Part shown: one piece after another, positions 28,292-42,499 of the stretch
Numbering within the stretch: the first letter of the stretch is position 1
Layout of the letters: each line of letters opens with the position of its first letter
Assembly (NCBI GenBank): GCA_031119205.1
Contig: JAVHYF010000035.1
Span: 1 to 42,499 of the forward strand
DNA from: Moraxellaceae bacterium
GTDB lineage: Bacteria > Pseudomonadota > Gammaproteobacteria > Burkholderiales > Rhodocyclaceae
Length of the DNA: 42,499 nucleotides
Direction of reading: 5' to 3'
Translations under genes and position numbers: made by a program
The notes under the pieces: generated by a model
Told to the model about the DNA's origin: nothing
What the model saw: the letters and a program-made list of their open reading frames with translations, nothing else
The model's database searches: none

Positions 28292-29830
28292 TCACATCAC
28301 CGGGCCGATCTGCCAGGGCAGGAACTCGTCGTTACCGTAGCCCAGCACTTCACTGCGTGTCTTCTCACCAGAGGCATGCGCCAGGATGGCATCGAAGATG
28401 CGCTGGCTGATCACCGGCATCGGCACACCGTCGATCAGGTCGCCACAGTTCACGTCCATGTCGTCGCGCTGGCGATTCCACAAGGCGTTGTTGGTGGCGA
28501 ATTTGATGGTCGGCACACCTGCACAACCGAAGGCTGAACCACGGCCGGTGGTGAAACAGATGAGCTGCGCGCCACCTGCGGCCTGGCCGGTCGCCGACAC
28601 GGGGTCATAGCCTGGCGTGTCCATGTACACGAAGCCCTGCTTGTCGATCTGCTCGGCGTACTCATACACCGCTTCCAGCGTGCTGGTGCCGCCCTTGGCG
28701 ACCGCGCCCAGCGACTTTTCGAGAATCGTCGTGAGGCCACCTGCCTTGTTGCCGACCGACGGGTTGTTGTCCATTTCGCCGCCGTTGCGGGCGACGTAGT
28801 CCTTCCACCACTCGATGCGGGCCAGCAGCTTCTCGGCCACCGCAGTGCTGGCCGCACGGCGCGTCAGCAAGTGCTCGGCGCCGTAGATCTCGGGCGTCTC
28901 GGACAGGATGGCGGTCGCGCCATGCGCCACCAGCATGTCGACAGCACCGCCCAGTGCGGGGTTGGCCGTGATGCCCGAGTAACCGTCGGAGCCACCGCAG
29001 TTCAGACCTACGATCAGCTTCGACAGCGGCGCCTCCTGGCGCTCGAACTGGTTGGCGACCGGCAGCATGGCCTGGATGCGCTCGATGCCGACCTTGATCG
29101 CCTGCGAGGTGCCACCCAGGTCCTGGATGTTCACGCTCTGCAGCATGCCGGGGGCGTGACCTTTCAGCTCATCCACCAGCGGCGCGATCTGGTTCATCTC
29201 GCAGCCGAGGCCGACGAACAGCACGCCAGCGAAGTTCGCGTGCTTGGCATAGCCAAGCATGGTCCGTCGCAGCACCGCCATGCCTTCCGTGCCACCCATG
29301 CCGCAACCCAGCGGATGCGGCAGGCCGACGACACCATCGATGTTCGGGTACTCGGCCAGCAGCTTGCGGTCGAAATGGCTGGCGATGCCGCGCACCACCG
29401 TCGCCGAACAATTCACCGAGGCGATGATGGCGATGTAATTGCGGGTGCCGACACGGCCGTCCGGCCGTACATAGCCGCGGAAAGTCGCCGGTCTGTCGAT
29501 CTTCGCCGCCGGATGCACTTCGGTGCCGAACGCATGGGTGCGCTCGAACTCGCCGACCACAAGGTTCTGCGTATGCACGTGCTCGCCCGGCGCGATGTCC
29601 GCCTTGGCGAAGCCGATGATCTGGTTGTAGCGCCGCACCACGCCACCCTTGGCGATGGCACGGGTCGCCACCTTGTGGCCGGGCGGAATCAGGCCACGCA
29701 CGGTGATGCCCTCTTCCGCCAGCTCGGTACCGGAAATGAGCTGGGCGGTGGCAATCACCACGTCGTCATTGGCGTGCAGGCGGATGAATTGGCGGGTAGC
29801 GGGTCGGGCCGCAACGGTCGCGTCGCTCAT
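28292..29830 (-). CDS. uxaA: Altronate dehydratase UxaA
   Basis: The product is 512 residues. It begins with a SAF-type domain (about residues 15-90) and continues with the altronate/galactarate dehydratase core: GYVRPDGRVGTRNYIAI, NCSATVVRGIA, HPLGCGMGG, GLGCEMNQI, VGLNCGGSDGYSGITANP and EMDNNPSVGNKAGGLTT. It converts D-altronate to 2-keto-3-deoxygluconate in the galacturonate pathway in the cytoplasm, with an iron cofactor in the family. Length is normal. The ATG follows a GAAGGAGTCC ribosome site. It sits 12 nt after uxaB on the same strand, so the two form an operon. Its product feeds KdgK, encoded upstream. Confidence 0.95.
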   Translation of the reverse strand: MSDATVAARPATRQFIRLHANDDVVIATAQLISGTELAEEGITVRGLIPPGHKVATRAIAKGGVVRRYNQIIGFAKADIAPGEHVHTQNLVVGEFERTHAFGTEVHPAAKIDRPATFRGYVRPDGRVGTRNYIAIIASVNCSATVVRGIASHFDRKLLAEYPNIDGVVGLPHPLGCGMGGTEGMAVLRRTMLGYAKHANFAGVLFVGLGCEMNQIAPLVDELKGHAPGMLQSVNIQDLGGTSQAIKVGIERIQAMLPVANQFERQEAPLSKLIVGLNCGGSDGYSGITANPALGGAVDMLVAHGATAILSETPEIYGAEHLLTRRAASTAVAEKLLARIEWWKDYVARNGGEMDNNPSVGNKAGGLTTILEKSLGAVAKGGTSTLEAVYEYAEQIDKQGFVYMDTPGYDPVSATGQAAGGAQLICFTTGRGSAFGCAGVPTIKFATNNALWNRQRDDMDVNCGDLIDGVPMPVISQRIFDAILAHASGEKTRSEVLGYGNDEFLPWQIGPVM

Positions 29831-29842
29831 CGTAGGACTCCT

Positions 29843-31354
29843 TCAGGCAAGCAGTGCACGCAAGGCCGGGCGCATGCCCTCGCGCAAAATCGTTTCAAGC
29901 GGTTGTGCCACCTTGTCGGCAAGACCGGGCACCGCCTTGAGGTCCTCACCCCACAGACGGACGTCACCCAGCACGCGACCAACCAGGGCGGCCGTGTCCT
30001 GATCCTGCTCCCAGCTACGCCAGGCTTCGGCCCACACGCCGAGCACGTCCGGGTTGTCGCGGATCACGTAAGACTTGTCGCCACGGGCGCCGACATAGTC
30101 GCCGCGCTCGTCGAAGCGACCGCGGTAGAAAGCCAGCAGTGCGGCCAGCGAGAAGGCCAGCGCAGCGGGCGCCTGGCCATGTTCGCGCACATGGTCCTTG
30201 ACCGTCGGCAGCACGCGCACCTGCCACTTCGAGACCGAATTCAGCGAAATGGAAATCAGCTCGTGGCGGATGTGCGGGTTGGCAAAACGCTCCATGATCG
30301 TTCTGGCATAGCCCATGCGCTCTGCATCCGGCAAGTCCAGGCAGGGCACGATCTCGTCGAACATCAGCTTCTGCAGGTAGGCCGACACCTCGGCGTCCGA
30401 CGTCATTTCCAGCACGGTATCCAGGCTGGCGAGGTAGGCCGCCAGCGCACTTGCCGTATGAGCACCGTTGAGCACGCGCACCTTGCGGGTGCGGTAGGGC
30501 TGCAGGTCGTCGGTCCAGATCACGTCCAGACCCGCCTTGTGCAGCGGAAACTCTTCCGCCAGGGCGCTAGGCCCTTCGATCACCCACAGGTGGAAAGGCT
30601 CGGCCGCCACCATCAGCGGATCGTCGTAGCCCTGCTCGGCAAACTGCGCGTCCGCTTCACCGGCAGGAAAGCCGGGAACGATGCGGTCGACCAGCGTATT
30701 GCAGAAGTGGTTGTGCTCCTGCACCCAGGCAACGAACTCCGTCGGCAGTTTCCAGTCCTGTGCATGCTTCAGGACGATCTGGCGCAGATTGCTGCCGTTG
30801 GCTTCAATCAGCTCGCAAGGCAGGAACACGAGGCCGGTTGCGGCAGAGCCGCCCAGCGTCTTGAAGCGGTGCAACAGCAAGGCCGCGACCTTGGCCGGGA
30901 AGCCCTGCGGGCAGCGCGCCTCGTCCAGCGCTTCCTCCACGTAGGCAATGCCGGCTTCAGTGGTATTCGAGATCACGAAACGCGTGGCCGGGTCTGCCGC
31001 TTTCGCCAGCATCGCCGCCCAGTCCGCGTAGGGGTTCAGGGCATCGTCCACGCAACTGACGATGCGGCGCGATTCGACCACCTTGCCGCCCTGCAGGCCG
31101 CGCAGCAGCACGGTGTACAGGCCGTCCTGGGCACGCAGCTTGTCGGCAAGGCCGCGATCCAGCGGCTGCGCGATGGTGACGCGACCGTTGAACAGGCCTT
31201 GACCGTTGGTGACGTCGATCATCCAGTCCGCGAATGCGCGCAGGAAGTTGCCGTCACCGATCTGGAGAATGCCCACAGGCGGCTTCGGGCTCGGCGTTGC
31301 GGCCTCGGCACGGAATTTCTGGCTATCGAAGAGTCGGCGGTTCAGGCTGGTCAC
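29843..31354 (-). CDS. uxaB: Tagaturonate reductase UxaB
   Basis: The product is 503 residues and belongs to the long-chain mannitol dehydrogenase family. It reduces D-tagaturonate to D-altronate with NADH. Conserved blocks are ILQIGDGNFLRAFADWMID, LPCELIEANG, EHNHFCNTLVDRIVPGFP and KVRVLNGAHTASALAAYL. The frame extends to a TTG at 31396 and an ATG at 31384. I place the start at GTG 31354 because it has GGAG upstream and gives TSLNRRLF, which lines up with the TLNRRDF start of the E. coli enzyme. The longer versions would translate a TTGTCTGACAA dyad, which is better read as an operator. The related fructuronate reductase is the main alternative. Confidence 0.92.
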   Translation of the reverse strand: MTSLNRRLFDSQKFRAEAATPSPKPPVGILQIGDGNFLRAFADWMIDVTNGQGLFNGRVTIAQPLDRGLADKLRAQDGLYTVLLRGLQGGKVVESRRIVSCVDDALNPYADWAAMLAKAADPATRFVISNTTEAGIAYVEEALDEARCPQGFPAKVAALLLHRFKTLGGSAATGLVFLPCELIEANGSNLRQIVLKHAQDWKLPTEFVAWVQEHNHFCNTLVDRIVPGFPAGEADAQFAEQGYDDPLMVAAEPFHLWVIEGPSALAEEFPLHKAGLDVIWTDDLQPYRTRKVRVLNGAHTASALAAYLASLDTVLEMTSDAEVSAYLQKLMFDEIVPCLDLPDAERMGYARTIMERFANPHIRHELISISLNSVSKWQVRVLPTVKDHVREHGQAPAALAFSLAALLAFYRGRFDERGDYVGARGDKSYVIRDNPDVLGVWAEAWRSWEQDQDTAALVGRVLGDVRLWGEDLKAVPGLADKVAQPLETILREGMRPALRALLA

Positions 31355-31385
31355 AAAGGTCTCCACACAGGTCGCCAGACACATG

Positions 31386-31396
31386 TTGTCTGACAA
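31386..31396. promoter_or_regulatory. Candidate GntR-type operator upstream of uxaB
   Basis: TTGTC-T-GACAA is a perfect dyad 32 nt upstream of the uxaB start. The layout fits FadR-subfamily GntR regulators such as UxuR/ExuR. Similar sites occur at 31430-31439 and 32568-32576. Confidence 0.55.
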
Positions 31397-31429
31397 ATGC
31401 GCTTATTTTGACAGAAGCACCCTCAAACG

Positions 31430-31439
31430 GGTCTGACAA
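31430..31439. promoter_or_regulatory. Second, imperfect TGTC-N-GACA-like site upstream of uxaB
   Basis: GGTCTGACAA matches the dyad at 31386-31396 with one weaker half. The centre-to-centre distance is about 44 bp, close to four helical turns. Confidence 0.4.
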
Positions 31440-31452
31440 GATCAATTTTTAC

Positions 31453-31474
31453 TTTGTGGGAGCGTACCCACAAA
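31453..31474. repeat. REP-like palindrome
   Basis: TTTGTGGG-AGCGTA-CCCACAAA is a perfect 8-bp hairpin. The TGTGGGAGCG core resembles the extragenic palindromic repeats common in pseudomonads and xanthomonads. A single copy is seen in the window, so this is tentative. Confidence 0.35.
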
Positions 31475-31506
31475 ACAAGGCGCCGACCTCAGATGGGGGT
31501 CGGCGC
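31471..31506 (-). terminator. Terminator after kdgK
   Basis: GCGCCGACC (31480-31488) pairs with GGTCGGCGC (31498-31506). On the minus strand the stem is followed by CTTGTTTTG. It lies 29 nt after the kdgK stop and separates it from the uxaBA unit. Confidence 0.8.
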
Positions 31507-31534
31507 AGAGGTCATCAAGTCCGGGCGATGGCGG

Positions 31535-32470
31535 TCAGACGAAGAAGAAGACCGGCATGGCCTCGCGCGGGATGATTGCGCCCGGATGTTGGACCACGAT
31601 GGAAGCGATTTTGTTGCCCGAGCGCGCTGCCAGCTCGGGCGAATTGCCCTGCAGGCGGGCTGCCAGATAACCGCCCGCAAAGGAATCGCCTGCCCCGGTA
31701 GTGTCGACCACTTTCGGCACCTTGAACACCGGCACCGACAGCGGCTCCATGCCGCGGATGCGCACCAGCGTCGGCTCGGCGCCACGCTTGATCACGACCT
31801 CTTCACAGGCCAGCGAATAGGCATGCGCCAGGGCGCTGCCCTCGTCCAGCCCGTACAACGCGGCATTGTCGTCCAGGGTGATCAGCGTCATGTCGCAATT
31901 GGCGAAGGCGCGGTCGTACCAGAACGGCGGATCATCATCGCGCCACAGCCGGGCACGGAAGTTGTTGTCGAAGATGACCTTGCCACCACGGGCACGGAAT
32001 CGTTCGATCAACGAGAACAGGCGCTCGCGGCCTGCCGGGGGCAGCACGGCCAGGCTGATGCCGCTGAAATAGATCGCATCGAGCTTGTCGAGCTCGTCTT
32101 CCAGCGGGCTGCTGGCGCCTTCGAAATAGCCACGGGCAGCGCTGGCATCGCGCCAGTAGTAGAAGGTGCGCTCGCCGCTCTCATCCACCTGGATGGTGTA
32201 GAGGCCGGGCATGCGCCCCTCTTCACGCAACACCATGTGGGTATCGATACCTTCGTCCTGCCAGGCAGCGATCATCGCCTGGCTGTAGGCGTCCGTACCG
32301 AGCTGGGTAGCGTAGGACACCTTGATGCCGCCTTCGGCACCGATCCGGCCGAGATAGACCGCGGTATTCAGGGTGTCGCCACCAAAATGCTGATGCATGG
32401 TGCCGAACATCTGGCCGCGCATCTCGATCATGCACTCGCCCAACAGGGCGATCCGGCATTTCACTTCCAT
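31535..32470 (-). CDS. kdgK: 2-dehydro-3-deoxygluconokinase KdgK
   Basis: The product is 311 residues and is a PfkB-family sugar kinase. The start RIALLGECMIEMRG and HFGGDTLNTAVYLGRIG match KdgK. The C-terminal active-site motif is VDTTGAGDSFAGGYLAA, with the GAGD catalytic aspartate. It phosphorylates 2-keto-3-deoxygluconate to KDPG, the step after altronate dehydratase. The ATG at 32470 lies behind an A-rich stretch with no obvious Shine-Dalgarno site. A terminator separates it from uxaB, so it is a separate transcript. The shared dyad upstream (32568-32576) suggests the same regulator. The KDPG aldolase is not in the window. Confidence 0.93.
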   Translation of the reverse strand: MEVKCRIALLGECMIEMRGQMFGTMHQHFGGDTLNTAVYLGRIGAEGGIKVSYATQLGTDAYSQAMIAAWQDEGIDTHMVLREEGRMPGLYTIQVDESGERTFYYWRDASAARGYFEGASSPLEDELDKLDAIYFSGISLAVLPPAGRERLFSLIERFRARGGKVIFDNNFRARLWRDDDPPFWYDRAFANCDMTLITLDDNAALYGLDEGSALAHAYSLACEEVVIKRGAEPTLVRIRGMEPLSVPVFKVPKVVDTTGAGDSFAGGYLAARLQGNSPELAARSGNKIASIVVQHPGAIIPREAMPVFFFV

Positions 32471-32780: not shown

Positions 32781-34214
32781 ATGAAGCCGACACCCACGCA
32801 GGCAAACCTGACCGTGGTGCCCCGCCCCTCCGGCGGCACGACCCAAGCCAGTCCGGAACGCATCCGGGTGCTGGATTGCGTCAACACGGCACTCGCTCAG
32901 GAAAAGCTGTCGCTCGCGGCCACCGCAGTGGCCGGAGAACTGGCGCGTGCCTTTGCCTGTGAGCACGTAGTCATCGGCTTCCTGCGCGGCCAGGTCAGCC
33001 GTGTGACGGCCTGGTCCGGCACCGCCGATCTGCGCCAGGAATTCCAGCTCGTGCGGCGCGTGTCGGCCGCCATGGACGAGGCGCTGGACCAGCACAGCAC
33101 CCTGCGCTACCCGCCACAGGCCGACGACCCGCCGCGCATCACCCTGATGCACGCCGAACTGGCCGCCGATACGGCCAGCGCGCTGTGTACCCTGCCGCTG
33201 CCGGCACGCGGGCGTGCCATCGGCGCACTCACCCTGATCCGCCGCGCGGACAAGCCCTGGCAGGTCGACGAGATCCTTGCCCTCGAAAAACTGGTCACCA
33301 CGATCGGCCCGGTGCTGGAGCTCAAGCTCCTGAGCCAGGAATCCGCCTGGGTCCGCCTGCGTCATGACATCCGCGACTTCACCAGCCGCCTGACTTCTGC
33401 CGGACACGTCCGTAGCAAGTTCGTCGTGCTGGGGCTGGCCCTGCTCATCGCGGCGCTGACCTTGGTGCCGGTGACCGAGAACGTCACCGCCAACGCGCGC
33501 ACCGAGGGCCAGATCCAGCGCAGCCTGTCGGCACCTGCGGACAGCTTCCTGCAGGAGGTGTTCGTCCACCCGGGCGACACCGTGAAGCAGGGGCAGGTCC
33601 TGCTACGCCTGGCCGACGAGGAATTGCTGGCCCAGCAACGCCGCCTGGAAGCCGAGCTCGCGCAGGCTCAGAGCGAAATGGCCGAGGCCTTCGCCCGCCA
33701 GGACCGCAGCCGCATGGTGGCCGCGCAGGCCAAGACCGCCGAGACCGGCGCCGCACTGAGCCTGGTGGCCCAACAGCTGGCCCGCACCAGCGTGCTGGCG
33801 CCGTTCGATGGCGTGATCATCAAGGGCGACCTGCAGCAACTGGTCGGCGCACCCGTCAAACGTGGCGACCCGCTGCTGACACTCGCGCCGAACACCGCTT
33901 ACCGCGTCGTCCTGCAGGTGGAAGACCGCGACGTCGCCGAATTGCGTCCCGGCATGCAGGGCGCCCTGACGCTGTCGGCCATGCCGGGCGAATCCCTGCC
34001 CATCCTCGTCGAGCGCGTCACCCCGGTCGCCCAGGTGGAGGACGGTCGCAATGTCTTCGAAGTACGTGCCCGCCTGCTCGGCGCTCACGCCGGCCTGCGC
34101 CCGGGGCTGGAAGGCGTCGCCAAGATCGGCCTTGGCCGCGCGCCGCTGGCGCAGGTAGCCGGTGGCCGACTGGCTGACTGGCTGCGCTTCCAGAGCTGGA
34201 AGCTGCTGGGCTAG
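32781..34214 (+). CDS. GAF domain - transmembrane - HlyD-type adaptor fusion protein
   Basis: The product is 477 residues. Residues about 30-185 form a GAF-like domain (FACEHVVIGFLRG, ALCTLPLPARGRAIGALTLI, VDEILALEKLVTTIGPVLELK), which would be cytoplasmic. A membrane helix is at about 214-232 (FVVLGLALLIAALTLVPVT). The periplasmic part has a lipoyl/barrel-sandwich hybrid (LQEVFVHPGDTVKQGQVLLRL), a coiled-coil hairpin rich in Gln/Glu/Ala (about 280-335), and VLAPFDGVIIKGDLQQLVGAPVKRGDPLLTL with a beta-barrel domain. Adaptors of the HlyD class bridge inner-membrane transporters and outer-membrane channels. A GAF sensor fused in front is unusual. It heads the operon; the next gene starts 30 nt on. 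No good ribosome site precedes the ATG. Ligand and partner are unknown. Confidence 0.82.
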   Translation: MKPTPTQANLTVVPRPSGGTTQASPERIRVLDCVNTALAQEKLSLAATAVAGELARAFACEHVVIGFLRGQVSRVTAWSGTADLRQEFQLVRRVSAAMDEALDQHSTLRYPPQADDPPRITLMHAELAADTASALCTLPLPARGRAIGALTLIRRADKPWQVDEILALEKLVTTIGPVLELKLLSQESAWVRLRHDIRDFTSRLTSAGHVRSKFVVLGLALLIAALTLVPVTENVTANARTEGQIQRSLSAPADSFLQEVFVHPGDTVKQGQVLLRLADEELLAQQRRLEAELAQAQSEMAEAFARQDRSRMVAAQAKTAETGAALSLVAQQLARTSVLAPFDGVIIKGDLQQLVGAPVKRGDPLLTLAPNTAYRVVLQVEDRDVAELRPGMQGALTLSAMPGESLPILVERVTPVAQVEDGRNVFEVRARLLGAHAGLRPGLEGVAKIGLGRAPLAQVAGGRLADWLRFQSWKLLG

Positions 34215-34243
34215 CACCCCGACTCGCCCGCCCAGTCCCGGCC

Positions 34244-36415
34244 ATGAGCGACTCCCTGTTCAGCCCCTACTGGTACCGCGTCGCCAGCCTGCGCCCGCGT
34301 CTGGCCGGCACGGTCAGCATCAGCCGGCAGAACTTCCGCGATGAGCAGTGGTACGTGCTGGCCAGCCGCAGTACCGGCCGCCAGTTCCGCGTCAATGCGC
34401 TGGGTTACCAGTTCGTCGGCCGCCTGGATGGCCGCCTGACGGTGCAGCAGATCTGGGACCAGCTGGTACGCGACCTGGGCAACGACGCGCCCAGCCAGAC
34501 GGAGGTGCTGCACATCCTGTCCGAGCTCACCGCCGCCAGCATGGCCAGCACCGAGCATTCGCTGGACCTCGCCAACGTCTTCGACCACGCCGATCGTCGC
34601 CGCGCCGGCCGACGCGGCAACCTGTTGTCGCTCAAGGTGCCGCTGTTCGACCCCACCCGCCTGCTGGACGCCGTGCTGCCCGCCGTGCAGCCGCTGTTTT
34701 CGCGTGGTGCGCTGCTGCTGTGGCTGCTCGTCGTGGTCGCGGCGCTGGTCACCGCAGGCATGCATTTCAGCGAGCTGCGCAGCTACGGTGCACGCCATCT
34801 GCTGACGCCAGCCAATCTCGCGATCATGTGGTTCTGCTACCCGCTCATCAAGGCAATACACGAGATGGCCCACGGCCTCGCCGTGCGGCACTGGGGCGGT
34901 GAAGTGCGCGAAACCGGCGCCACGCTGTTCCTGTTCATCCCGGTGCCCTACGTCGACGCTTCCGCCGCCTCGGCATTTCCGGAAAAGTCGCGACGCATCC
35001 TCGTCAGCTCGATGGGCATCATCGTCGAGACCGCCATCGCGTCGGCCGCACTCGCCCTGTGGCTGGCCGCCAGCGACGGCCTGCTGCGCGAGACCGCCTT
35101 CGCCTGCCTGCTGATCGGCGGCGTGTCCACGGTGCTGGTGAATGCCAATCCGCTGATGCGCTTCGACGGCTACCACGTGCTGACCGACTGGCTGGAAGTG
35201 CCGGGATTGGCCACCCGCAGCGAAGCGGCACTGCGCCACCTCGGCGAACGCTGGCTGCTTGGCAATCGGAAGCTGCCGCCGCCGGCCGGCACCGAGGGTC
35301 ACCGCCTGATGCTGGTCAGCTACGGCCTGGCGTCATGGATCTACCGCATCCTGCTCTTCGTGGGCATGGTGGCCTGGATCAGTGCCAAGAACGCGCTCGC
35401 GGGCCTGGCGCTGGCCCTGTTCCTGGCCTGGAAATTCCTCGCGCTCCCGCTGCTGAAGCTGGTCCGCCATGTGTGGGCGGCGCCTCGCCTGGAAGCCTGT
35501 CGGGTTCGCGCAATCACCGGGCTGGCGGTCATCGCGGGGGGGCTGGTGGTATTGCTGGGTGTCGTGCCCATGCCCTACACCACCGTCACACAGGGCGTCG
35601 TATGGGTGCCGCCGGAAGCGCAGGTGCGTAACGACACCGAGGGCTTCGTCGAACAGGTGCTGGTCAGCGACGGCCAGCAGGTGAGCAGCGGTCAGCCGCT
35701 GGTGGTGCTCAGCAACCCGGATCTCGATGCGGCCATCAGCCAGATGCAGGCGCGCATCGACGAACAGCAGGCCGTCTTCCAGGCCAGCCTGCTCAACCAG
35801 CCGTCGCTCGCCGTGGCCAGTCAGGAAGCCATCGACAAACTGGCTGCCGACCTGGCCGAACTGCAGCGCCGCCGCGCCGGGCTGACCCTGAAGGCGCCAC
35901 GCGCCGGCAAGCTGGCCCTGCCCTACGGCGAAGATTTGCCGGGGAGCTTCTTCCCGCGTGGCAGCACGGTCGCCCACGTGATCGCCCCCGCCGACATGAC
36001 GGTGCGCGCCGTGATGCGCCAGCAGGATGTAGACCTCCTGCAGAAGGGCACGCGTGCCATCGAGGTACGCCTCAGCGAAGCGCGCGGTCACAGCCTGCCC
36101 GCGCAATTGCTGGCACAAACCCCGGCCGCCACCTTCGTGCTGCCCAGCCCGGCGCTGGGCGACCGCGGCGGCGGCCCGGTGATCACCGACCCGGCCGACG
36201 GCGAGGGCACGCGCGCGCTGGAGTCCTTCTTCGTGCTCGATCTGCGCGTGCCCGGCAACGGACTGGAACGCATCGGCAGCCGCGCCTGGGTGCGCATCGA
36301 ATACGACCGCAAGCCGCTGGCCTGGCAATGGCTGCGCAGCCTGCGGCAGGTCTTCGTCAAACAGTTTGGCGCGCGCAGCGCAGCCATGCTCGGCACGGAT
36401 CTCGATCTCCCCTGA
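34244..36415 (+). CDS. PqqD-like / M50 zinc metalloprotease / HlyD fusion protein
   Basis: The product is 723 residues. Residues about 30-100 resemble a PqqD-type winged helix (QFRVNALGYQFVGRLDG, then VQQIWDQLVRDLG). In RiPP pathways this domain binds leader peptides. The M50 site-2-protease core has H206-E207-x-x-H210 in KAIHEMAHGLAVRHWGG and the third zinc ligand in NPLMRFDGYH (D308), among several membrane helices. After a further helix near residue 430 comes a lipoyl/HlyD-type periplasmic part (VEQVLVSDGQQVSSGQPLVVLS) with a coiled coil (about 500-555). This matches proteins named putative peptide zinc metalloproteases. It could cleave or hand over a membrane-entering precursor. The stop overlaps the ATG of the next gene (ATGA). 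Confidence 0.85.
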   Translation: MSDSLFSPYWYRVASLRPRLAGTVSISRQNFRDEQWYVLASRSTGRQFRVNALGYQFVGRLDGRLTVQQIWDQLVRDLGNDAPSQTEVLHILSELTAASMASTEHSLDLANVFDHADRRRAGRRGNLLSLKVPLFDPTRLLDAVLPAVQPLFSRGALLLWLLVVVAALVTAGMHFSELRSYGARHLLTPANLAIMWFCYPLIKAIHEMAHGLAVRHWGGEVRETGATLFLFIPVPYVDASAASAFPEKSRRILVSSMGIIVETAIASAALALWLAASDGLLRETAFACLLIGGVSTVLVNANPLMRFDGYHVLTDWLEVPGLATRSEAALRHLGERWLLGNRKLPPPAGTEGHRLMLVSYGLASWIYRILLFVGMVAWISAKNALAGLALALFLAWKFLALPLLKLVRHVWAAPRLEACRVRAITGLAVIAGGLVVLLGVVPMPYTTVTQGVVWVPPEAQVRNDTEGFVEQVLVSDGQQVSSGQPLVVLSNPDLDAAISQMQARIDEQQAVFQASLLNQPSLAVASQEAIDKLAADLAELQRRRAGLTLKAPRAGKLALPYGEDLPGSFFPRGSTVAHVIAPADMTVRAVMRQQDVDLLQKGTRAIEVRLSEARGHSLPAQLLAQTPAATFVLPSPALGDRGGGPVITDPADGEGTRALESFFVLDLRVPGNGLERIGSRAWVRIEYDRKPLAWQWLRSLRQVFVKQFGARSAAMLGTDLDLP

Positions 36416-38430
36416 TGGCCGCCCGCGACCCTTTGCCCGCACCGGGCATCGTGCTCGGCCCCTATCCCGAGAAGTCCCATGCGGACAACCCCGCGCCCTG
36501 GCTAGCCAGCCTCATGGCGACGTGGGCCGCCCTCCCGCCCGTCGCCCGCCAGCGTGAGCGTGCCTTGCGCGCCTGGGTAGCGCGGGTGCGCGCGGCACAG
36601 GCACAGGTCCCCCCGTTTCCCGGCCGTGCCTTCCGCGATGCCTTGCTGGGCGTCCGCGCGGAAATGGCGCGCGATGGCTTCGGCTCCCCTGCCTGCGAGC
36701 GCGCCTGTGCCTTCGTCGCCCAGGCCATCGCCGCGGTGACCGGCCTGCAGTTGCGCGACAACCAGTTGATGGCCGCCCATGTGGTGCTGAGCGGCCGCCT
36801 GGCCGAGATGCCCACCGGCTCAGGCAAGACCTTGTCCACTGCGCTGGCGGCCACGGTCGCCGCCCTGGCCGGCGTGCCGGTGCATGTGCTGTCGGCCAAC
36901 GACTATCTCGCGCAGCGCGACTGTGACTACCTGCGCCCGCTGTTCCGCAACCTGGGCCTCAGCGCAGCGTCCATCGCGCAGAGCATGAAACGCGGTGAGC
37001 GCCGCAGCGCCTACGCCTGCGACATCGTGTACTGCAGCGCCAAAGAGCTGGTGTTCGACTGGCTGCGCGACAGCCTCCTGCCTCCACCGGTGGGGCTGGG
37101 CGCCGACCAGCGGGGCGGCCGCGTCCTGCGCGGCCTGTGCATGGCCATCGTGGATGAAGCCGACAGCGTGCTGATCGACGAGGCCAACACGCCGTTCGTG
37201 CTGTCGGAGTCCTACACGGAAGCCGGCCAGATCGCGCTGTGCCGCCTTGCGCTGGCGCTGGCCGGCCGGATGCAGGAGGGCCTGCACTACCACCTGGACG
37301 AGCGCCGCAACGTGGTGCTGGCCGATGCCGGCCGCCACCTGGTTACCACCGACAGCCAGAGCCCGGAGAACGCCGCTGCCGCGCAGGACAGCCCGCTGTG
37401 GGCCGTACCACGCTACCGCGATGAACTGGTCGGGCTGGCCATCCAGGCCATCCACGCCTTCCAGCGCGACCGTCACTACATCGTGCGCGACGGCAAGGTG
37501 CACATCGTGGACGCCACCACCGGCCGCATCGCCGAAGGCCGCAGCTGGTCGCGCGGCCTGCAGCAACTCATCGAGCTGCGCGAGGGTTGCCAGCCCTCGG
37601 CCGCCACCCGGGTGATCGCGCAGGTGAGTTATCCACGCCTGTTTCCGCGCTACCTGAGGCTGGGTGGCATGAGCGGCACGCTCACGGAAGCCCGCGCCGA
37701 ATTGCTCGAGGTGTATGGGTTGGCGGTGGACATCGTGCCCAGCGGCTACCCACGCACGCTGCACGTCGCCCCACCACAGGTCTTCGCACACGGTGACGAC
37801 AGGCTGCAGCGCCTTCTCACCAGTGTTACAGCGGCCCGTGCCGCCGGGCGGCCGGTACTGATCGGCACCGACTCGGTCGGCGAGTCCGAAAAGATCGCCC
37901 GCCTGCTCGCCGCCCATCATCTGCCGCACCAGGTACTCAACGCCCGCCAGGACCGGCGCGAAGCCGAGATCGTGGCCCAAGCCGGCACCGCCGGTCAGCT
38001 CACTGTGACAACCAACATGGCGGGCCGCGGTACGGACGTGCACATTCCACCGCAGGTCGCCCACAATGGCGGCCTGCACGTCGTTTCCTGCCAGCACAGC
38101 AGCTCGCGCCGGATCGACCGTCAGCTGTTCGGCCGCGCCGCCCGCCAGGGCCAGCCCGGCAGTGCAGAAACCCTGCTCGCGCTGGACGAAGGTTTGCTGG
38201 CAACACACCTGCCGGCCCCCGTGAAATACGTCCTCCGGCACGTCTCAAGGGCCGGCCTTCCTACGCCGTTAGTCTTAGCGAGGGCTGTCACCCGGTTCAC
38301 CCAGGCTCTGGAAGAACGCCGTTTGCGGCGCGCCAGGGCACTTGCACGTTGGCAGGACCAGCAGCACAGCGCACGCATGCCCTTCGGCATGCGACCCGAA
38401 GCCGCAGCCCCGGAGTCCGACAGACGATGA
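36415..38430 (+). CDS. SecA-like preprotein translocase ATPase (shortened paralogue)
   Basis: The product is 671 residues, against about 900 for housekeeping SecA. Walker A is EMPTGSGKT at 131-139. Other SecA motifs are LSANDYLAQRDCDYL, IVYCSAKELVFDWLRD, AIVDEADSVLIDEANTPFVLS, RYLRLGGMSGTLTEARAEL, TTNMAGRGTDVHIP and RRIDRQLFGRAARQGQPGS. The preprotein-crosslinking region is present but reduced, and the C-terminal zinc-binding, SecB-interacting tail is absent. Sequence drift from normal SecA is clear (LSANDY for VTVNDY; VDEAD for VDEVD). It would be an ATP-driven motor for a subset of exported proteins. Start and stop overlap both neighbours by ATGA, so it is translated with the M50 fusion and the adaptor. 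A second, full SecA must exist elsewhere. Confidence 0.9.
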   Translation: MAARDPLPAPGIVLGPYPEKSHADNPAPWLASLMATWAALPPVARQRERALRAWVARVRAAQAQVPPFPGRAFRDALLGVRAEMARDGFGSPACERACAFVAQAIAAVTGLQLRDNQLMAAHVVLSGRLAEMPTGSGKTLSTALAATVAALAGVPVHVLSANDYLAQRDCDYLRPLFRNLGLSAASIAQSMKRGERRSAYACDIVYCSAKELVFDWLRDSLLPPPVGLGADQRGGRVLRGLCMAIVDEADSVLIDEANTPFVLSESYTEAGQIALCRLALALAGRMQEGLHYHLDERRNVVLADAGRHLVTTDSQSPENAAAAQDSPLWAVPRYRDELVGLAIQAIHAFQRDRHYIVRDGKVHIVDATTGRIAEGRSWSRGLQQLIELREGCQPSAATRVIAQVSYPRLFPRYLRLGGMSGTLTEARAELLEVYGLAVDIVPSGYPRTLHVAPPQVFAHGDDRLQRLLTSVTAARAAGRPVLIGTDSVGESEKIARLLAAHHLPHQVLNARQDRREAEIVAQAGTAGQLTVTTNMAGRGTDVHIPPQVAHNGGLHVVSCQHSSSRRIDRQLFGRAARQGQPGSAETLLALDEGLLATHLPAPVKYVLRHVSRAGLPTPLVLARAVTRFTQALEERRLRRARALARWQDQQHSARMPFGMRPEAAAPESDRR

Positions 38431-39326
38431 CGATGAATGCAGTACCCACTCGCCTTGCCACCCGCCTCGGCAGCCTGGGCCTGATGCTGGCCTTGCTGGG
38501 CCAGCCCACGGCCGCCAACGCCCAGGCGGGCGCCAGCGTGCCCGCGGGCTGGGGCGGTGCCGCCCCGCGCGCCGCCGCCCCTGCAGCGCGCGACACCCTG
38601 GGCTGCCTGCTGCTGCCCACGGCCGAGGCCGAAGTCGGCTCACCAGTGGTAGGCGTGCTGGAGAAGGTGAATGTGGAGCGTGGTGACCGGGTGAAGAAGG
38701 GCCAGGTCGTCGCCCAGCTGGTCAACGACGTGGAACGCGCCGCCACCATGGCCGCCGAGCGCCGCCACGAAAACCGCGCCGACGTCGCCGCCGCCCGCCA
38801 TGCCTGGGAGTTCGCCCAGAAGAAAGCCGAGCGCGCCGAAGACCTGTACCAGCAGAAGTTCATTTCCAGCCAGGCGCGCGACCAGGCGGTGTCCGAAGCC
38901 AAGGTCGCCGCCATGAAGTACGCGCAGACCCAGGAAATGCGCCTGGTCGCCAAGCAGGACCTGGAAGTGGCGCGCGCCCAGCTCGGCCTGCGCAACATCC
39001 ATTCGCCGATCAATGGCGTGGTGGTGGACCGCTACCTCGCCGCCGGCGAGCGCGTCGAGGACAAGCCGATCCTGAAGCTTGCACAGATCGACCCGCTGCG
39101 CGTCGAGGTCGTGGTGCCCTCCTCCCGCTTCAACCAGATCAAGGCCGGCAGCACTGCCCGCGTGACGCCGGATCTCGCCGGCCTGCCCGAGCAGAGCGCC
39201 CGCATCACCGTGGTGGATGCCGTCATCGACCCGGCCAGCAATACCTTCCGCGTCCGCCTGGAACTGCCGAACCCCACTGGCAGCATTCCATCGGGCTTGC
39301 GGTGCAAGGTGGACTTTTCCGGCTGA
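38427..39326 (+). CDS. HlyD-type periplasmic adaptor (membrane fusion protein)
   Basis: The product is 299 residues. An N-terminal Sec signal peptide (cleavage near ANA-QAGAS) is followed by an Ala-rich linker. The lipoyl half motifs are VGSPVVGVLEKVNVERGDRV and NIHSPINGVVVDRYLAAGERVEDKP; between them lies a long helical hairpin (about 110-170). A beta-barrel domain ends the chain. The organisation is that of RND-type membrane fusion proteins (as in AcrA), but no RND pump is encoded nearby. The ATG overlaps the stop of the SecA-like gene (38427-38430). It probably serves as the third adaptor module of the operon. A lipoprotein cysteine is not apparent. Confidence 0.87.
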   Translation: MTMNAVPTRLATRLGSLGLMLALLGQPTAANAQAGASVPAGWGGAAPRAAAPAARDTLGCLLLPTAEAEVGSPVVGVLEKVNVERGDRVKKGQVVAQLVNDVERAATMAAERRHENRADVAAARHAWEFAQKKAERAEDLYQQKFISSQARDQAVSEAKVAAMKYAQTQEMRLVAKQDLEVARAQLGLRNIHSPINGVVVDRYLAAGERVEDKPILKLAQIDPLRVEVVVPSSRFNQIKAGSTARVTPDLAGLPEQSARITVVDAVIDPASNTFRVRLELPNPTGSIPSGLRCKVDFSG

Positions 39327-39350
39327 CGCCGGGCCGAGGAGCAAGCAGAC

Positions 39351-42300
39351 TTGGGCCACGCCGACTTGCGCGCACGTTTCCGCAAGGGCCTAGACAGGCT
39401 CACGGCAAGCCTCGGCCTGACGCAGGCCACGACAGCCTCCACGGCAGCACCCACGGTGTCCGGGACAGGCACCGAGCCGCCGCGCCGCCTCGTCTTCGAG
39501 GAAGTGGAAGCTCGCCTTCTGTACTCGGCGGATCTCGCCCCGGGGGTGGTCGATAGCGGCGCCGAAGTGCGCAGCATCGACGACGACAGCGACGACATGG
39601 CCGGCCAGGCCAACCCGCAGCCTGAGCACAGCACGCAGCAGGCCCGGACCCTGGTCTTCATCGACGACAGCGTGGCCGATCAGGACGTGCTGGTCCGCGG
39701 CATCCTTGCCGAGCACCCGGACGCCGAGATCATCCATCTGGACAGCAGCCGTGACGGCGTCGCCCAGATCAGCGAAGCCCTCGCAGGCCGGCAGGACATC
39801 GACGCTATCCACCTGCTGACCCACGGTAGCGAAGGTCGCCTGCAGATCGGGGCGACCCGTCTGGATGGCAGCACCCTCGGCCAGCATGCCGATGCCATTA
39901 CAGGCTGGCGTGCGGTCCTCAGCGAAGATGCCGACCTGTTGATCTACGGCTGCGACTTCGCGGGCAGCGATGCCGGACGCGCACTGGCCGACGGTCTCGC
40001 CAGCCTGAGTGGCGCTGACGTAGCCGCCAGCGACGACCTGACCGGCAATGCCAGCCAGGGCGGTGACTGGGAGCTCGAGTACCGCAGCGGCAGCATCCAG
40101 TCTGCGCTGGCGGTCGGCACCGCCACCCAGGAGTCCTGGTCCGGCACCCTCGCCGTCACCGTGGGCAGTACGACCTCTGCCGCCACCAGCACCTCCGGCG
40201 CGACAAGCCTGAGCTGGTCGCACACCGTCGCGGCCGGTAGCGACCGCATGCTGGTGGTATCGATCGCCGCCCGCAATGACGGGCCGGTCGACACCGTCAC
40301 CTATGGCGGCCAGGCGCTGACGCGCCTGAGCTCCGTCATCGGTGATGGCGTCGTGGTCGCCGAGATCTGGTATCTGCTGAATCCAACGGTCGGATCGGCA
40401 AACGTCGTCATCAGCCTGGGCAGCACACACGAGTTCGTCGCCGGCGCCACCAACTTCACCGGTGTGGACCAGACAACCCCTTTCGGTACGGTCAAGACTG
40501 ACGCAGACGACGGCAGCACCAACTCCTCCGCCTCGGTATCGTCCGCGGCCGGCGATGTCGTCATCGACGTGATCGCCCTGCGCCAGCAGGACGGCACCCC
40601 CTCCATCGGTGGCGGGCAAAGCCTGCTGTGGACCGAACGGGTCGGCAACAGCAGCGCAGACCCTACCGGCGCCAGCAGTTACGAAATCGCCTCGGGCAGC
40701 TCCACCTCGATGACCTGGAGCAGCATCGACAACAACTCGGCTCACGCTGCCATCGGCGTGGCCATCAAGGCCACTGCCAACACGGCACCGACGGTCACCA
40801 TCACCCCGACGAGCTACGCCGCCACCGAACAGGTGGCCATCAACCTGCACGGCAGCGGCATCACGGTGGCCGACGCGCAGGGTGGCAGCCTTACGGTCAC
40901 CATTTCGAGCGGCAGTGCCAACTCCGAGTTCACCGCCAGTGTCGGCAGCACCGGCGTGACGATTTCATCCGGCAATGGCACCAACAGCCTGGTGCTCACC
41001 GGCACGATCGCCCAGCTCAACAACCTGTTCGCTGGCAACAACAGCGGCACCCTCACCTTCCGCCAGGCCGGCGACACGCCGCCAGCCAGCGTCACGATGA
41101 CGATCAGCGCATCGGACGGCAGCCTCAATGGCAACGACACGGCGACCATCAACATCACTTCGGTGAACGACGCGCCGGACATCGTCACCACCGGTGGCAA
41201 CCTGTCCTACTCGGAGAACGCCGGTGCGGTAGTCATCGACTCCGGTCTCACCGTCACCGACGCGGACAACACCAACCTGACCGGTGCCACTGTCCGCATC
41301 ACCAGCAACTACCAGAACGGCCAGGACGTACTGGCCTTCACCAACCAGCTCGGCATCACCGGCAGCTGGGACGCCGCCACCGGGACGCTCACTCTCACTG
41401 GCACCACGACGGTTGCCAACTACCAGACTGCGCTGCGCACCGTCACGTACCAGAACACCAGCGAGAGTCCGAGTTCCAGCAACCGCGTCGTGACCTTCAC
41501 CGTCAATGACGGCAACACGACGGATGCTGCCACGCGCGGCATCGCGGTAAGTGCAGTGAACGATCCGCCGGACATCACCACCACCGGCACCACACTGTCC
41601 TACACCGAGAACGCCGCAGCCACCGCCATCGACTCCGGCCTGACGGTCACGGATGTCGACAACAGCAACCTGACCGGCGCAACGGTCCAGATCACCGGCA
41701 GCTACCAGAATGGCCAGGACATCCTGGCCTTCACCAACCAGCTCGGCATCACCGGCAGCTGGAACGCCGCCACCGGGACGCTGACGCTCAGCGGCACGGC
41801 CAGCGTTGCCAACTACCAGACGGCACTGCGTTCGGTGACCTACCAGAACAGCAGCGAGAACCCGAACACCAGCACCCGCACGGTCACCTTCACGGTGAGC
41901 GACAACTCGGCGTCCGACAGCGCGACGCGCAACATCAGCGTCACCACGGTCAACGACCCACCCGTCATCACCAGCAATGGCGGCGGGGCCTCTGCCTCGG
42001 TCAACGTGGCGGAGAACAGCAGCGCGGTCACGACCGTGACGGCCACCGACGCTGAAGGCAGTGGCCTGACCTACTCGATCAATGGCGGTGCCGATGCCGG
42101 ACGCTTCACCATCAACAGCAGCACCGGCGCCCTGACTTTCTCGTCGGCGCCGAACTACGAGTCGCCGAACGACAGCGATGGCAACAACACCTATGTGGTG
42201 ACCGTACAGGTCTCCGACGGCAGCACGACCGACACCCAGACAATCACCGTGACCGTCACGGACGTGGACGAGTTCGATGTCAGCGCGGTGACCGACAGCA

Positions 42301-42499
42301 ATGCTGCCGCCAACACCGTAGCGGAGAACGCCAGCAACGGTACGACGGTAGGCATCACCGCCACGGCCAGCGATGCGGATGGCAGCAACAACACCGTTAC
42401 CTACTCGCTGTCCGACAACGCCGGCGGGCGCTTTACGATCAACAGCAGCACCGGCGTGGTCACCGTTGCGAATGGCACCCTGCTCAACCGCGAGTCCGC
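39351..42499 (+). CDS. Giant LEPR-XLL/DUF4347/cadherin-like repeat protein (partial, 3' end beyond window)
   Basis: The frame runs to the right edge (1049 codons) with no stop. The start is TTG 39351, supported by GAGGAG at 39336-39341, 24 nt after the adaptor gene. The N-terminus (MGHADLRARFRKGLDRLT) is basic and has no hydrophobic signal peptide. Residues 49-62 read FEEVEARLLYSADL, close to the LEPR-XLL motif of very large exported repeat proteins. Residues about 100-267 are a DUF4347 domain (LVFIDDSVADQDVL, IHLLTHGSEGRLQIG, LLIYGCDFAGSDAG). Then come a beta-rich region (268-480), two near-identical 131-residue repeats (610-871) and a cadherin-like repeat (DGSGLTYSI-type, GGADAGRFTINSSTGALTF). 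Such proteins are adhesins or surface-layer/biofilm proteins. The cognate exporter is probably encoded just upstream. Confidence 0.85.
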   Translation, partial: MGHADLRARFRKGLDRLTASLGLTQATTASTAAPTVSGTGTEPPRRLVFEEVEARLLYSADLAPGVVDSGAEVRSIDDDSDDMAGQANPQPEHSTQQARTLVFIDDSVADQDVLVRGILAEHPDAEIIHLDSSRDGVAQISEALAGRQDIDAIHLLTHGSEGRLQIGATRLDGSTLGQHADAITGWRAVLSEDADLLIYGCDFAGSDAGRALADGLASLSGADVAASDDLTGNASQGGDWELEYRSGSIQSALAVGTATQESWSGTLAVTVGSTTSAATSTSGATSLSWSHTVAAGSDRMLVVSIAARNDGPVDTVTYGGQALTRLSSVIGDGVVVAEIWYLLNPTVGSANVVISLGSTHEFVAGATNFTGVDQTTPFGTVKTDADDGSTNSSASVSSAAGDVVIDVIALRQQDGTPSIGGGQSLLWTERVGNSSADPTGASSYEIASGSSTSMTWSSIDNNSAHAAIGVAIKATANTAPTVTITPTSYAATEQVAINLHGSGITVADAQGGSLTVTISSGSANSEFTASVGSTGVTISSGNGTNSLVLTGTIAQLNNLFAGNNSGTLTFRQAGDTPPASVTMTISASDGSLNGNDTATINITSVNDAPDIVTTGGNLSYSENAGAVVIDSGLTVTDADNTNLTGATVRITSNYQNGQDVLAFTNQLGITGSWDAATGTLTLTGTTTVANYQTALRTVTYQNTSESPSSSNRVVTFTVNDGNTTDAATRGIAVSAVNDPPDITTTGTTLSYTENAAATAIDSGLTVTDVDNSNLTGATVQITGSYQNGQDILAFTNQLGITGSWNAATGTLTLSGTASVANYQTALRSVTYQNSSENPNTSTRTVTFTVSDNSASDSATRNISVTTVNDPPVITSNGGGASASVNVAENSSAVTTVTATDAEGSGLTYSINGGADAGRFTINSSTGALTFSSAPNYESPNDSDGNNTYVVTVQVSDGSTTDTQTITVTVTDVDEFDVSAVTDSNAAANTVAENASNGTTVGITATASDADGSNNTVTYSLSDNAGGRFTINSSTGVVTVANGTLLNRES
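41166..41951 (+). repeat. Two tandem 393-bp repeats in the giant gene
   Basis: Unit 1 spans about 41166-41558 and unit 2 about 41559-41951, with a period of exactly 131 codons (GAC 41178 to GAC 41571). Both units keep the YQNGQD-[VI]-LAFTNQLGITGSW core with few changes, so the duplication is recent or kept similar by recombination. Confidence 0.9.

Follow-up and report, generated by a model that had tools for sequence, protein, structure and literature searches.

A SecA-like ATPase, M50 protease and HlyD gene module and its link to giant proteins with an N-terminal LEPR leader motif

How might a bacterium export a very large protein that has no recognisable Sec signal? The question is raised by the right-hand end of a 42,499-nucleotide stretch of DNA (hereafter the window), which is the entire contig C8 (JAVHYF010000035.1) of a Moraxellaceae bacterium genome assembly of 4.6 Mb in 90 contigs (GCA_031119205.1). 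From position 32781, the plus strand carries five tightly spaced genes that encode, in order, a GAF-HlyD protein, a PqqD/M50/HlyD fusion, a SecA-like ATPase, a HlyD-type adaptor and a DUF4347 protein, and we consider it fairly likely, judging from sequence, that the locus is best explained as a dedicated exporter (the first four genes, hereafter the module) together with its giant cargo. The module is already known, since the set of GAF-HlyD, M50-HlyD, SecA_DEAD and HlyD genes was published in 2015 (Kamneva, Poudel and Ward, PMC4452313), and a first-pass annotation of this DNA, which knew of no described system with this exact set, needs correcting on that point. What is new here is the cargo link: the module is tied to giant proteins with a LEPR leader by co-occurrence, by adjacency and by matching subclasses. 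Gene order, domain content, catalytic motifs, co-occurrence, adjacency and the correspondence of motif type with M50 class and SecA-like gene were computed directly.

The link hinges on a short motif near the start of the cargo (gene at 39351..42499, plus strand), in which residues 47-69 match the LEPR-XLL family NF012209 with 20.9-22.5 bits against a cut-off of 17 (VFEEVEARLLYSADLA, 39489..39557, S-type). We scored the motif and the M50 protein in a 300-genome sample of the order and a 397-genome sample of the phylum, which have the window's own genome (G000), G015, G049 and G093 in common (E limit 0.001; three M50 candidates scored per genome in the order sample, two in the phylum sample). 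Strong-class M50 matches reached at least 284 bits in the order sample, against at most 172 for the others (two of the strong matches being fragments from G153), and at least 563 bits against at most 357 in the phylum sample, G382 being counted as strong on a 415-bit fragment. In the order sample 32 genomes had the motif and 32 a strong M50 match, with 28 having both, 4 the module only (G052, G114, G153 and G181), 4 the motif only (G093, G094, G238 and G249) and 264 neither (Fisher p 6e-31). G181, scored as motif-less, has a diverged motif copy, LEWLESRVLYSTD, in an adjacent frame, and the match in G094, to a frame of only 23 residues, is probably spurious. At genus level (135 genera), the motif was found in 17 of the 18 module genera (p 1e-17). 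The phylum sample gave 32 genomes with both, 4 with the module only (G351, G382, G425 and G508), 7 with the motif only and 354 with neither (p 5.5e-36), and all 39 motif genomes carried an M50-HlyD protein of some class. The motif was also present in 42 of 50 genomes chosen from 80 module loci, including an Omnitrophota and a Rokubacteria record, at least one of the 50 (G326) being also in the phylum sample (as G573); one of the 8 misses (G309, locus L131) shows the motif by eye in an adjacent frame, and 0 of 14 control genomes carry it. A lack of co-occurrence had been set beforehand as the outcome that would refute the export idea, and we found co-occurrence to be strong and accompanied by frequent adjacency of module and cargo. 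The first-pass annotation had named DUF4347/LEPR-XLL as the feature to track: DUF4347 follows the module less closely (18 of the 32 module genomes in the order sample), and because it is absent in the other 14 it is the LEPR motif that tracks the module. We rejected DUF4347 as the main cargo marker on this ground and also on finding it in 30 genomes without a strong module.

Adjacency points the same way. In 29 of the 58 genomes that have both motif and strong-class M50, a motif gene and the M50 gene share a strand and are no more than 8 kb apart, a count that leaves out motif hits off the module contig and several distant hits on the same contig and keeps all 58 genomes in the denominator. 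Two gene orders were seen: in one the cargo precedes the module genes (cargo, GAF, M50, SecA, HlyD), and in the other, which is that of the window, it follows them. In two more genomes (G137:C120 and G432:C407) and at another G363 locus the motif stands within 1.1 kb downstream of a SecA-like frame. The 80 module loci, many of them cut by contig ends (as in a further set of 112 related loci), contain a relative of GAF-HlyD in 76, a SecA-like gene in 69 and a HlyD gene in 58, at least four of the loci in these sets (L116, L135, L164 and L165) being also in a separate locus retrieval. Among the 80, a strict form of the motif occurs in the first 400 residues of all 14 DUF4347 frames, and in 4 of 949 other frames of 300-999 aa, the DUF4347 frames having been found through DUF4347 similarity and the strict pattern written after motifs had been seen. 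At one locus the SecA-like gene and the LEPR giant are separated by a gene that encodes an Lcl_C-domain protein (L104:9896-11431).

The motif also comes in two types that match two classes of M50 protein. S-type leaders consist of a mostly basic stretch followed by [hydrophobic]-E-x-L-E-x-R-x-L-x-S-[AG]-D, and in the D-type, ALEPR[ILV][LM][LFY]D[AG][AT], D replaces S and the upstream E is missing; typing covers 93 of 97 rows (L063, L200, L213 and L241 were not located) and was done by reading, the automatic label being wrong for 9 D-type rows. Nine genomes combine NF012209 matches with a weak-class M50 only (G093, G238, G249, G481, G512, G385, G400, G412 and G435), and every match read from them, which is all but a second G249 match, is D-type. 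Conversely placed are G355 and G580, which have a strong-class M50 and each also have a D-type match, that in G580 lying about 7 kb from a weak-class M50. With these exceptions, leader subtype follows M50 class and, for the most part, the presence of the SecA-like gene. The two M50 classes align over near-full length (E 2e-82), their N-terminal domains alone at 7e-5. We also read eight weak-class loci (L108-L115), which were chosen for a nearby DUF4347 or LEPR match, three of the eight genomes having been found via the motif: each has a cargo frame bearing a LEPRxxFD-type motif, 6 of the 8 have a TolC-type gene, and no ATPase was noticed among the identified frames. These loci make up a SecA-free type (alignment A5) consisting of a giant with a LEPRxxFD leader, HlyD, M50-HlyD and often a TolC-type gene.

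What would read such a leader? The second gene of the module (34244..36415) encodes a 723-aa fusion of PqqD, M50 and HlyD domains that is a candidate leader receptor and leader peptidase. Taken alone, the window protein matches PqqD at 4.4e-4 and M50 at 4.7e-4, both under the Pfam gathering score; at E 0.01, Pfam finds PqqD in 23 and M50 in 37 of the 39 aligned relatives (the window protein counted). Its first 110 residues (34244..34573) match the PqqD structure 3g2b by profile (profile A4, 1.8e-4) and are modelled as three strands followed by three helices, so that by sequence and topology this part is a PqqD-like (RRE-type) domain with predicted leader binding. Farther on, the zinc-ligand motif HEMAH (residues 206-210; 34859..34873) has H206, E207 and H210 invariant in 39 of 39 sequences, and NANPLMRFD (residues 300-308; 35141..35167), which we take to be the second M50 active-site motif, has N300, N302, P303 and D308 invariant in the same 39. 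The protein thus has the HExxH and NxxP..D sequence features of an M50 site-2 protease and is a predicted protease. It also matches the daptide protease NF041824 (7.5e-42; 143.8 bits, below the cut-off of 300), and by analogy the presence of PqqD-type and protease domains in one protein suggests leader recognition and cleavage of the kind known for ribosomally synthesised and post-translationally modified peptides (RiPPs).

The candidate motor is the third gene product (671 aa; 36415..38430), in which profiles, a predicted model and Foldseek place nucleotide-binding and preprotein-binding domains (SecA_DEAD 2.4e-69, PP_bind 8.6e-20, P-loop 3.9e-42). The model has a pLDDT of 90.4, and its Foldseek ranks 1-36 are all SecA or SecA2. 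The residues that are unchanged across 34 SecA-like sequences are those that we take to be the ATP site and arginine-finger region. The family profile built from these 34 members aligns to residues 14-608 only of B. subtilis SecA, and because it stops there the protein would lack what presumably follows residue 608, namely the wing, the two-helix finger and the tail; it does not have the full scaffold, wing and C-terminal regions of a canonical SecA, and it scores far under every cut-off of the SecA2 models TIGR04397, TIGR04221, TIGR03714 and NF012136. A separate canonical SecA is encoded in the same genome (G000:C77:26596-28116, within a 942-aa frame). SecA-like frames match the profile to its end (position 657-667) with 467-992 bits, the match of canonical SecA ends near position 508-557, mostly with 484-597 bits, and because the scores overlap slightly we separated the two by span and frame length. 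On this basis the SecA-like gene is present in 54 of the 58 genomes, counting a 516-aa frame with an internal stop in G569 and a frame of only 467 bits in G291.

The remaining two module genes encode adaptor-type proteins. The GAF-HlyD protein (477 aa; 32781..34214; GAF 3.5e-5, HlyD_D23 1.1e-17) has, by eye, a single hydrophobic segment, and the HlyD/RND-type periplasmic adaptor (38427..39326; HlyD 1.8e-17; TIGR01730 124.8 bits, cut-off 94.9) has, by eye, a signal-peptide-like N-terminus. In four module loci without a SecA gene (L149, L158, L185 and L187) the HlyD adaptor is longer (397-502 aa) and extends at its C-terminus into a further region that by eye resembles SPOR, Pfam giving no SPOR match for L187. 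The genes follow one another with a 29-base gap (GAF-HlyD to M50), a TGATG overlap at 36413-36417 (M50 to SecA-like), an ATGA overlap at 38427-38430 (SecA-like to HlyD) and a 24-base gap before the cargo, which starts with TTG; the most probable start of the SecA-like gene is 36415, although its longest frame begins at 36328. Frames and junctions thus bear out the five plus-strand genes, with their order and their overlaps or short gaps, that had been read from the sequence at first, and the profile searches agree with the domain identities then given to the five products.

The cargo gene begins with a 5' part encoding DUF4347 (39651..40151; 183.4 bits, 1.9e-52) and then cadherin-like repeats (4.6e-15). 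Because the contig ends inside the gene, at 42499, after 1,049 codons, the protein has at least 1,049 aa here and is called giant by inference from its relatives; of the giant repeat protein first described, the repeats are thus visible in the window and the size is taken from elsewhere. Its N-terminus has no strongly hydrophobic stretch, in keeping with the earlier statement that it has no signal peptide. In 88 S-labelled rows, which include 9 that are truly D-type and have start codons picked by rule, the residues ahead of the motif carry a net charge of +6 in the median and lack a hydrophobic core (highest 12-residue Kyte-Doolittle mean, median 0.43). Motif frames reach 14,920, 15,434 and 19,427 codons, the last of them (L262-L264, G409:C115) having a LEPR leader, 0 internal stops, 9 cysteines and a 93-residue period. 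The 80 module loci hold 33 frames longer than 2,300 aa, the motif having been checked in part of them; 31 are acidic and contain no more than 2.3 cysteines per 1,000 residues, and the remaining 2 are opposite-strand frames. We take the cargo to be a secreted protein of very large size that has no recognisable Sec signal. A C-terminal signal common to the giants was considered and rejected, the last 120 residues of 23 frames varying widely. Seven of the 23 frames upstream of the module end in a short GW-containing hydrophobic stretch followed by a basic-rich tail (L120, L123, L159, L162, L178, L192 and L193), a possible C-terminal sorting signal.

For the steps themselves, from recognition and cleavage of the leader to the coupling of energy, the path of the chain and its location at the surface, we propose a route by inference. 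The M50 protein would bind the LEPR leader through its PqqD-type domain in the cytosol; the SecA-like ATPase, in which the ATP site and the preprotein-binding domain are retained, would drive the chain, still unfolded, through the M50 membrane domain or next to it; and the three HlyD parts, two on membrane-anchored proteins and one periplasmic, would bridge to a TolC-type channel. The M50 protein may remove the leader, and the GAF domain may gate the machine. In its widest form, which we hold to be about an even bet, the proposal is of an unnamed Gram-negative secretion pathway whose receptor, a PqqD-type domain carried by a membrane protease, recognises a short LEPR leader at the N-terminus, and through which proteins approaching 20,000 residues at the largest are exported. 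S-type leaders would in most cases work with a SecA-like motor, and those of the D-type with an M50-HlyD set that has no SecA but often has TolC, receptor class and leader type having changed together.

Several observations, here and in the two paragraphs that follow, weigh against a dedicated SecA-driven exporter. Four genomes with strong-class M50 and motif (G604, G359, G417 and G693) show canonical SecA only, as do 6 of 9 genomes, of unstated completeness, selected for a module locus lacking SecA, and the motif protein persists without the SecA-like gene: 5 of these 6 loci have a motif-bearing cargo frame, and the sixth genome (G310) has one motif match. The D-type class has no SecA-like gene, with 0 of 7 D-type-only genomes in the phylum sample carrying one (read from spans and frame lengths, and excluding G238 and G249). 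Because some module genomes are without the gene, the SecA-like ATPase cannot always supply the energy, and SecA as the sole possible engine, as a general statement, was rejected; the energy source first proposed could therefore apply in the 54 of 58 genomes that have the gene and not in the rest. The class threshold and the motif pattern were defined after the data had been seen. The 50 Foldseek matches shown for the M50 model are adaptor proteins and include no PqqD or M50 structure, so that the PqqD identity rests on sequence profiles and topology and the attempt to identify it through fold search was dropped. A TolC-type frame was found by BLAST in only 15 of the 112 related loci, and in the window BLAST with six TolC-type (OEP) proteins found none.

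Might the giants instead be moved by an ordinary ABC type I transporter encoded elsewhere, with the module later processing, retaining or anchoring them at the surface? The window's genome does have an LssB-type ABC on another contig (G000:C77:228393-230477, 981 bits), next to a HlyD gene (L265:6286-9896 being the ABC and HlyD gene), and the 20 kb read around it held no frame longer than 740 aa. LssB, PrtD or HlyB-type ABC proteins are over cut-off in 39 of the 58 genomes, the window's included (LssB 24, PrtD 20, HlyB 16). RTX repeats, present in 9 of 9 C-terminal pieces scanned, which also match RTX toxin and serralysin models below cut-off, are likewise usual features of type I cargo. Against this, 19 of the 58 genomes have none of the three models over cut-off (among them the single-contig G148, 92% complete, and G710, 100%), each still having sub-cut-off ABC matches; none of the models that matched the nine pieces is named for a C-terminal signal of type I secretion, a target model of that kind presumably being part of the library, and the sequence that the giants share is N-terminal. 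A cytosolic SecA-type ATPase would also have no obvious role outside the cell. We consider this explanation unlikely. The earlier remark that neither an ABC transporter nor an outer-membrane channel is visible holds for the five genes, the contig ending inside the cargo gene, and for the BLAST of the window, and not beyond, as the LssB-type gene and the 15 TolC-bearing loci make plain.

The SecA-like protein could also be a SecA2-type partner of ordinary SecYEG, the M50 and HlyD parts only guiding and trimming the emerging chain. Its sequence and model are SecA throughout, and the Foldseek matches include SecA in complex with SecY (5eul); the profile, however, stops at residue 608, short of the presumed wing, two-helix finger and tail, and the S-labelled leaders lack a hydrophobic core. 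On balance we think this quite unlikely. Loss of the wing-scaffold is also described in PMC4452313. There remains the explanation that the module exports something else and that the LEPR link stems from joint inheritance on mobile islands or in large genomes. Related, and so non-independent, genomes were sampled, co-occurrence was computed without a control for genome size, and 29 of the 58 genomes have no motif gene placed within 8 kb on the same strand, many assemblies being fragmented. Yet the association persists at genus level, motif and module occur together in the Omnitrophota and Rokubacteria records, adjacency is seen in two gene orders and motif subtype follows M50 class, and we regard shared inheritance as improbable. 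A dedicated exporter with its giant cargo is thus the explanation that we prefer.

How does such an exporter compare with known systems? The module agrees with the secondary SecA_DEAD / type I secretion system (T1SS)-related module of Kamneva et al. (PMC4452313) in its four genes, which stand together in the window, and in a SecA without all or part of the wing-scaffold, as judged here from the alignment end at 608 and the model. Those authors suggested SecA as the ATPase and M50 as a possible pore, and they report no ABC transporter in their loci, one of which comprises the genes META1p2399-2402 of Methylobacterium extorquens AM1; the accessible part of the paper mentions neither a cargo nor a leader motif, nor a PqqD-type domain, a SecA-less class or a LEPR link. 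In the open-access literature, as far as its texts were accessible, we found nothing tying LEPR-XLL to an export machine or the module to LEPR-XLL/DUF4347 proteins, and the library entry for NF012209, whose cut-off the window cargo exceeds, only names the domain. Type I secretion (HlyB/HlyD/TolC, or LapB/LssB for giant adhesins) shares HlyD adaptors, sometimes a TolC-type gene, and large RTX-bearing cargo; unlike it, the system described here has a conserved N-terminal signal, a SecA-type ATPase and an M50 protease, and has no ABC among the five genes, the search for one having been confined to this locus. Accessory Sec (SecA2) likewise uses a second SecA-family ATPase for special cargo, but the present protein scores far under the SecA2 cut-offs, lacks the C-terminal part after 608 and has M50 and HlyD partners. 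RiPP leader processing by the NF041824 daptide protease shares a PqqD-like domain with an intramembrane metalloprotease and a short N-terminal substrate leader, and differs in the sub-cut-off score, in substrates of up to thousands of residues and in the extra HlyD domain. To the left of the module, on the minus strand (28292-32470), lie sugar-acid genes (altronate/galactarate dehydratase, mannitol-type dehydrogenase and KDG-kinase-like) that are apparently unconnected with it.

The transport of proteins of 5,000-20,000 residues across two membranes is poorly understood, and a specific, widespread N-terminal motif is now a candidate cargo mark for the module described in 2015. Recognition, cleavage and motor use thereby become testable on a small scale, with the domain of 110 residues and a peptide of 15. 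Should the proposed route prove true, a SecA-family ATPase would be part of a type I-like assembly, and the purpose of the LEPR-XLL motif would be accounted for.

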